The position numbers were made by a program, and so were the translations under genes. 44,180 nt of DNA from Bacteroidota bacterium (lineage in GTDB: Bacteria > Bacteroidota > Bacteroidia > Bacteroidales > Tenuifilaceae). Below the pieces are notes generated by a model, which worked only from the letters and a program-made list of their open reading frames with translations, searched no databases and was not told the DNA's origin. Of the stretch, positions 24,915 through 26,335 are shown in pieces. How positions within the stretch are numbered: position 1 is the stretch's first letter; each line of letters opens with the position of its first letter. The DNA lies in NCBI GenBank assembly GCA_029558675.1, contig JAKQEF010000124.1:1-44180 (forward strand), given 5' to 3'.

Positions 24915-24961
24915 CGAAGGGCTCGGCGAAGCCAAACCCGAAGGGCTCGGCGAAGCCAAAC
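24915..24961. repeat. 24-bp tandem duplication CGAAGGGCTCGGCGAAGCCAAACC (x2)
   Basis: Copies at 24915 and 24939 (second lacks last base), each with a CTTCG/CGAAG-type palindrome. Confidence 0.75.
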
Positions 24962-24975
24962 ATAATATCTCTTCA

Positions 24976-25200
24976 ATGTCTCGCTGCGCTGCAGCTTGTG
25001 TGGCGGGACTACCTCAAATGCAACAAAGGTCTCGCTGCGCTGCAGCTTGTGGGACGGAATTATCCCAAATGCAACAAAGGTCCCGCTGCGCTGCAGCTTG
25101 TGTGGCGGGATTACCTCAAATGCAACAAATGTCTCGCTGCGCTGCAGCTTGTGGGAGAGGTTGCTCCAAAGCAACAAAGGTCTCGCTGCGCTGCAGCTCA
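24976..25200. repeat. left hairpin-repeat array, 5 units
   Basis: GCTGCGCTGCAGC cores at 24983, 25034, 25085, 25136, 25185 (steps 51, 51, 51, 49). Confidence 0.95.
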
Positions 25201-25230
25201 ATTTTTATTTTTAGAAAGAAACACTCTTTA

Positions 25231-25301
25231 GGCGCAGAGCGCAGCAACCTTTGTAACCAATCACAAAAAGAAAGGACATAGGTGCAGGGCACCGAAACCT
25301 T
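25231..25301 (+). repeat. two diverged hairpins of the same design as the array repeat, opposite orientation
   Basis: GGCGC-AGA-GCGCA-GCAACCTTTGT (25231) and GGTGC-AGG-GCACC-GAAACCTT (25281), 50 bp apart. Confidence 0.75.
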
Positions 25302-25330
25302 AAAAAAAGTTATCTTTGAATAAAAACGCT

Positions 25331-25810
25331 ATGGCAAATACCTATACACAGTTTTACGTGCATCTTGTGTTTTCGCCCAACAATAGACAAGCACTAATAC
25401 AGCGATCGTGGAAAGATAAATTGGAAAAATATATTACTGGAATTGTTCAAAAAAACGGCCACAAAATGCTGGCGGTAAGCTGTATGCCTGACCACGTTCA
25501 TATTTTCATTGGCTATAATGTTAATCAGCTGATTCCCGACCTGGTGGAACATATTAAAACATCGACCAATGCATGGATAAAGGACGAGAACTTATCCAAA
25601 TTCAAATTTGCTTGGCAGCGGGGATATGGTGCATTTTCCCATTCGCGTTCTCAACTCGATACGGTTGTGCAGTATATTCTCAATCAGGAGGAGCATCATC
25701 GAAAGAGGTCTTTCAGAGAGGAGTATTTGGAAATACTACGCAAAAACGATGTTAAGTTTCAAGATGAGTATTTATTTGAATTCTTTGACAATGGCTCGGA
25801 ATGGGAATAG
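25331..25810 (+). CDS. IS200/IS605-family (Y1, HUH) transposase, TnpA/RAYT-like
   Basis: 159 aa 'MANTYTQFYVHLVFSPNNRQALIQ', HUH 'MPDHVHIFIG', C-terminal catalytic-Tyr region 'SQLDTVVQYILNQEEHHRKRSFREEYLEIL'; preceded by TATCTTTG at 25311. Confidence 0.93.
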   Translation: MANTYTQFYVHLVFSPNNRQALIQRSWKDKLEKYITGIVQKNGHKMLAVSCMPDHVHIFIGYNVNQLIPDLVEHIKTSTNAWIKDENLSKFKFAWQRGYGAFSHSRSQLDTVVQYILNQEEHHRKRSFREEYLEILRKNDVKFQDEYLFEFFDNGSEWE

Positions 25811-25840
25811 CTATTTGTTTTTAATAATGCCCTAAAGATA

Positions 25841-26264
25841 AAGGTCTCGCTGCGCTGCAGCTTGTGTGGCGGGATTACCTCAAATGCAACAAAGGTCTCG
25901 CTGCGCTGCAGCTTGTGGGAGAGGTTGCTCCAAAGCAACAAAGGTCTCGCTGCGCTGCAGCTTTTGGGAGAGGTTGCTCCAAATGCAACAAAGGTTTCGC
26001 TGCGCTGCAGCTTGTGGGAGAGGTTGCTCCAAAGCAACAAATGTCCCGCTGCGCTGCAGCTTGTGGGAGAGGTTGCTCCAAAGCAACAAAGGTCCCGCTG
26101 CGCTGCAGCTTGTGGGACGGAATTATCCCAAATGCAACAAAGGTCCCGCTGCGCTGCAGCTTGTGTGGCGGGACTACCTCAAATGCAACAAAGGTCTCGC
26201 TGCGATGCAGCTTGTGGAAGAAGTTGCTCCAAAGCAACAAAGGTCTCGCTGCGCTGCAGCTTGA
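25841..26264. repeat. right hairpin-repeat array, 9 units
   Basis: Cores at 25849, 25900, 25949, 25999, 26048, 26097, 26148, 26199 (GCTGCGATGCAGC), 26248; steps 51, 49, 50, 49, 49, 51, 51, 49. Confidence 0.95.
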
Positions 26265-26335
26265 AAAACCTGTTAGAGGGAGCCTCCCCATTAATGAGGA
26301 TAAAGCCTCTGATTTGTTTGTTTTCTATTGCTGAT

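Follow-up and report, generated by a model that had tools for sequence, protein, structure and literature searches.

A Y1 transposase gene between two hairpin arrays

The window analysed here is a 44,180-nucleotide stretch of DNA from a member of the Bacteroidota (Tenuifilaceae; GenBank assembly GCA_029558675.1, contig JAKQEF010000124.1, positions 1–44,180, forward strand). The feature studied in it is a gene for a 159-residue HUH/Y1 transposase (25331–25810, + strand; coding 25331–25807, stop codon 25808–25810), flanked on both sides by arrays of short DNA hairpins. The whole hairpin-to-hairpin unit spans 1.29 kb (24976–26264, + strand), and a single hairpin occupies the orthologous site of a congener.

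Fourteen hairpins lie on the + strand between 24983 and 26260, five to the left and nine to the right of the gene. Thirteen have the sequence GCTGCGCTGCAGC (GCTGC-GCT-GCAGC, a 5-bp stem with a 3-nt loop), the first of them at 24983–24995, while the remaining one, starting at 26199, has the loop GAT instead of GCT. Hairpins of the left array (24976–25199, + strand) start at 24983, 25034, 25085, 25136 and 25185, with spacings of 51, 51, 51 and 49 bp; those of the right array (25842–26264, + strand) start at 25849, 25900, 25949, 25999, 26048, 26097, 26148, 26199 and 26248, with spacings of 51, 49, 50, 49, 49, 51, 51 and 49 bp. These positions bear out the first-pass annotation, which had described 14 copies, five left and nine right, in a single orientation with a period of 49–51 bp. 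The hairpin density at the gene is far above chance expectation: 15 hairpins lie in its flanks, whereas 300 dinucleotide shuffles averaged 2.0 and never exceeded 6.

In both arrays, the 5′ foot sets the first hairpin apart from the rest. Specifically, the first hairpin of the left array carries a type-1 foot (TTCAATGTCTC) and the other four a type-2 foot, GCAACAA[A/T]GGTC/TNC, while the first hairpin of the right array carries the type-1 foot AAGATAAAGGTCTC and the other eight the type-2 foot; CAACAA is absent from the first hairpin of both arrays and present on all others. Three spacer types are common to the left and right arrays, indicating that the two arrays are related to each other. In addition, the stretch separating the left array from the gene contains two extra hairpins, which have other stems and the inverse orientation. 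The first (type-1) hairpin of this inverse pair is GGTGC-AGG-GCACC (25281–25293, − strand), with the foot AAGGTTTC on the − strand, and the second (type-2) is a decayed GGCGC-AGA-GCGCA (25231–25243, − strand), with the foot GGTTACAAAGGTTGC on the reverse strand at 25243–25258. An Rfam search of the hairpins returned no family match.

Classification of the transposase

The window protein matches the Pfam family Y1_Tnp (E = 6.5e-27), and TnpB has no match anywhere in the source genome (a draft, 64% complete, in 196 contigs), in agreement with the earlier description of a Y1 transposase lacking TnpB. The protein contains H55-V-H57, WQ at 95–96, and Y115-x3-Q119-x2-H122-H123 (YILNQEEHH). Residues H55, H57, Y115, Q119, H122 and H123 are invariant in 18 aligned members, and the Y-x3-Q-x2-HH motif occurs in nearly all homologs for which an intact reading frame could be found. 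The named relatives are overwhelmingly from Bacteroidota; orthologs in cultured strains include those of Runella zeae DSM 19591, Maribellus luteus XSD2 and a Flavobacterium isolate (L271, L254 and L285). The source genome has three Y1 genes with a mutual identity of ~35–44%, and none is a near-identical copy of another.

The protein scores 67.7 bits against the IS200/IS605 model NF033573, above its cut-off of 55, and 26.5 bits against the model for transposases of repetitive extragenic palindromes (REPs), NF047646 (REP_Tyr_transpos), far under its cut-off of 80. Among solved structures, both sequence and fold place it closest to the IS200/IS605 transposases ISDra2 and IS608 bound to hairpin ends; the fold comparison used a predicted structure (pLDDT 90). 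The root-mean-square deviation of 3.0 Å to the monomeric structure 4er8 of a REP-associated tyrosine transposase (RAYT), versus 5–13 Å to IS200 transposases, was not used, as it may be no more than an effect of folding a monomer. IS200 transposases are domain-swapped dimers.

In the classification of Quentin et al. 2018 (PMC6006769), TnpA-Y1 subclass 1.2 comprises proteins of ~150 residues with the motif Y-x3-Q-x2-HH and a specific C-terminal tail, found mostly in Bacteroidetes and Cyanobacteria, in low, divergent copies per genome. The subclass was described as being without REPs, generally without typical IS200 end structures, and without insertion sequence (IS) behaviour. The window transposase shares the motif, length, C-terminal tail and low, divergent copy number, and judged by this signature it is a member of subclass 1.2 (IS200-like). 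The RAYT membership put forward as a candidate in the first-pass annotation is not supported, since the REP-transposase cut-off is missed, the motif is Y-x3-Q-x2-HH instead of Y-x3-NP, and a GTAG/GTGG foot is lacking.

Hairpin families and pairs at Y1 loci

We scanned for perfect hairpins (stem of 5 or more, loop of 3–5) within 800 bp of Y1 genes, in a first set of 64 loci, in 29 loci from later-drawn genomes, and in 75 loci from a separate collection. A locus was scored positive when repetition of the same stem exceeded that in shuffles. Repeated hairpins are present at 140/168 Y1 loci (49/64, 25/29 and 66/75, respectively), a recurrence that extends across the Bacteroidota. None of 29 superoxide dismutase control loci has repeated hairpins, and none of 140 random windows of the source genome has three or more hairpins with the same stem.

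Stems sort by transposase lineage rather than by genome. The more similar two transposases are, the more similar their stems tend to be (Mantel r = 0.47, with 0/2000 permutations as high), and 97% of Y1 pairs that are at least 70% identical have a common stem, while Y1 paralogs within one genome have hardly any stems in common. Furthermore, sites defined by the foot, independently of the stem, have a perfect stem in 64/91 cases, compared with 0.4% of random 13-mers; positions 2 and 3 of the stem show compensatory changes. The commonest stem length among repeated hairpins is 5 bp, and the GTAG/GTGG foot occurs on just 3/351. The 2018 search (PMC6006769) required GTAG/GTGG plus a stem of 7 or more, a rule that 0/351 repeated hairpins satisfy, which accounts for their having been missed. 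The published description of subclass 1.2 as hairpin-free therefore needs amending: unlike the subclass as published, most loci here have dense cognate hairpins, with no GTRG foot.

The two paralogs in the source genome have other surroundings. The second Y1 gene (G000:C31; L001 1400–2000) lies between two near-identical long palindromes, CACCACCCATTGCCCAAGGTTTAAACCCTGGGCAATGGG, a hairpin partner unlike that of the window gene, and the third (G000:C108; L003 1030–1490) has longer palindromic units of its own upstream, AAGGGGCGTAGCCCTGAAATCTTA / TTGGGGCGTTAGCCCCAAAATC, repeated in tandem with a period of ~136 bp. Distant subclass 1.2 genes (L059–L061 and L082–L102; less than 40% identical) have dense hairpin families with spacings of ~27–28 and 66–67 bp, not 51.

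Hairpins of the larger subfamily are organized as direct pairs with a spacing of ~51 bp, which form its basic module. In relatives with an identity of 40% or more, hairpins are 50–52 bp apart in the same orientation, and the spacing peak lies at 49–54 bp in every locus set, including the later two. Near 51 bp there are 78 same-orientation versus 16 opposite-orientation pairs, a split biased to "same" by the assignment of orientation from the feet; the distance itself is independent of orientation. The pair is polar, as indicated by a test free of orientation calls: TAYAA is found in 108/374 feet within pairs versus 18/296 outside (p = 7e-15). Specifically, the first hairpin has the short foot ATNTNNC, and the second, ~51 bp on, has CTAYAA (GCAACAA in the window) ahead of the ATNTNNC foot; the two arrays of the window follow this order. 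Pairs occur singly, back to back as inverted four-hairpin composites, or in tandem, with one first and several second hairpins. Alignment of feet and tails in search of element ends found the 3′ tail of either hairpin nearly uninformative beyond one T.

Rather than being spread genome-wide without enrichment near Y1 genes, the outcome that the first-pass annotation had named as contradicting its proposal, the zero-mismatch motif occurs in 10/60 related genomes, clustered for the most part at loci of Y1 orthologs, and the reversed control gave 0 matches. When two mismatches are allowed, some relatives have 44–75 sites, with zero control matches. Dispersed copies in the source genome and in the congener (G001) take the form of pairs or four-hairpin elements with different neighbouring genes; one of them (G001:C54) is 84% identical to window 25128–25302 over 179 bp. 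Four one-mismatch core matches were found in the source genome, of which C99 and C152 are real pairs and C145 is a single site; the match on C174, inside coding sequence, looks like chance and was rejected. At G005:C9:78343–79020 (L103), a nine-hairpin array with the 51-bp grammar has no Y1 gene within the surrounding 6 kb and is possibly an orphan remaining after gene loss.

At the orthologous site of the congener (G001:C42, L138), the segment 24976–26264 is missing and one hairpin is left, between flanks that are 95% (left) and 91% (right) identical to those of the window. On its left, this solo hairpin retains the sequence bordering the first window hairpin; on its other side are the initial bases that come after the last one. 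It is followed by ~400 bp of unrelated palindromic repeats (L138 1530–1930), which suggests that hairpin elements have accumulated at this intergenic site on repeated occasions.

Hairpins and Y1 gene are also present, decayed or absent together at a site between DUF4290 and uvrD in another genus. Both are intact in G006; in G024 the gene is frameshifted and the hairpins are partly decayed; in G020 both are decayed; and in G025, G012 and G017 both are absent. Together with the lineage-specific stems, the co-presence at Y1 loci and the dispersed copies, this co-decay upholds the proposal of the first-pass annotation that the arrays belong with the transposase.

A REPtron-like unit and its alternatives

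We favour, with a probability of about three in four, the reading of the locus as a REPtron-like unit: a non-proliferating IS200-type Y1 gene of subclass 1.2, accompanied by cognate hairpins that its product would cut, move and amplify. The reading starts from the association, stem specificity, spacing, polarity, dispersal, presence/absence and co-decay observed above, and continues by analogy with characterized enzymes. The hairpins would fold while the strand is single, as on the lagging-strand template, and the enzyme would bind them via stem, loop and 5′ foot. Tyr115 would then cut beside the hairpins and join the ends, so that pairs could be moved or copied to new sites and arrays could grow, shorten or be reduced to one hairpin. 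Within a pair, the hairpins would be the counterparts of the IS200 left and right ends.

The arrangement is like that of REPtrons (TnpA-REP/RAYT with REP/REPIN), in which a single gene is flanked by its own hairpin family, copies are dispersed elsewhere, and each paralog has its own family, and it agrees with the earlier suggestion that this is not a classic IS200 copy. Unlike in RAYT/TnpA-REP systems, the protein is of class 1, without Y-x3-NP and without a GTAG/GTGG guide, and the basic module is a direct pair, unlike the inverted REP pair that forms the unit of REPINs and BIMEs. The locus resembles IS200/IS605 elements (IS608, ISDra2) in fold, in HUH/Tyr chemistry, and in one-strand hairpins with a 5′ foot; it differs from their one left end and one right end in having many hairpins per side (arrays of 5 and 9), and also in the lack of a multicopy identical element and of TnpB. 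PATEs and MITEs derived from IS200/IS605 (e.g., in Haloquadratum) are short non-autonomous hairpin units dispersed without a transposase gene. Unlike these, the smallest unit here is a bare ~75-bp hairpin pair, which also occurs in tandem around the gene. REPs with 5-bp stems are known in Marinomonas (PMC8266576).

Several points weigh against the favoured reading. Copy numbers are low, with 27 foot-plus-hairpin sites in the source genome and at most 75 in relatives, i.e. tens of copies compared with the hundreds typical of REPs and REPtrons; repeat copy number in assemblies can also be wrong. The genome-level correlation between motif and Y1 is significant but moderate (Mann-Whitney p = 0.0013), on a two-mismatch count that is noisy at this level. 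The motif is present without a close Y1 in G005, G025 and G039, so that either the hairpins persist independently of the enzyme or these assemblies are incomplete. In addition, the solo hairpin of the congener could come from plain recombination between repeats, and neither cleavage site nor target motif could be precisely assigned. Finally, binding, cutting, strand choice and copying are extrapolated from how IS608, ISDra2 and TnpA-REP work (PMC8266576).

One alternative is that the enzyme is domesticated and the hairpins are fixed sites for a host function, such as single-stranded DNA repair, replication-fork processing or autoregulation, with array change as a side effect. The genes are single-copy, divergent and catalytically conserved, and the hairpins cluster at the gene, as this explanation would have it, but gene and hairpins are often lost or decayed together between species, and the copies dispersed elsewhere are more like mobile DNA than a fixed host function; we regard it as unlikely. 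Less likely still is an ordinary autonomous IS200/IS605 element whose left and right ends were tandemly duplicated by happenstance. The IS200-family cut-off is exceeded, the entire segment is in one congener and missing from another, and the hairpins of a pair share a strand, as the two ends of IS200 do. Such an element is hard to reconcile with the divergence of the three Y1 genes in the source genome, with the many sites at which arrays or pairs lack the gene, with several hairpins on each side, and with the lack of IS behaviour in subclass 1.2 (PMC6006769). It is quite improbable that the hairpins act as RNA, as terminators, attenuators or mRNA-stability elements of the transposase transcript: hairpins do stand on both sides of the gene, but they match no Rfam family, occur in both orientations relative to it with conserved DNA-strand feet, and form pairs far from it as well. 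Least probable of all, and very unlikely because of the out-of-sample tests, are passive tandem repeats that arose by slippage or recombination beside a transposase that is a mere neighbour, for although recombination would give the same three spacer types on both sides, the association is lineage-specific over 168 loci with controls at zero, and pair spacing and foot polarity are conserved.

Extended beyond this locus, the REPtron-like reading becomes a broader proposal that we consider somewhat probable: subclass 1.2 would be a phylum-wide hairpin system of Bacteroidota, with an origin separate from that of RAYTs, in which the polar direct pair, with its fixed spacing of ~51 bases, is a minimal left-end/right-end unit dispersed by the enzyme and amplified around its gene. 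A transposase class without known substrates since 2018 gains specific candidate DNA partners in many culturable Bacteroidota, and one kind of short palindromic repeat found in their intergenic DNA would be accounted for. An IS200-type enzyme in a REP-like relation to its own hairpins also bears on the origin of REP systems from insertion sequences. Furthermore, polar feet at a constant distance of 51 bases predict that the two hairpins are read as one substrate.

Two further repeats adjoin the arrays. A 24-bp unit, CGAAGGGCTCGGCGAAGCCAAACC, is doubled just before the left array (24915–24961) and present in about one copy in the congener. The ~70 bp directly 3′ of the right array (26262–26331) form a dispersed repeat of their own, which the congener G001 carries at several sites (C62, C54 and C67).
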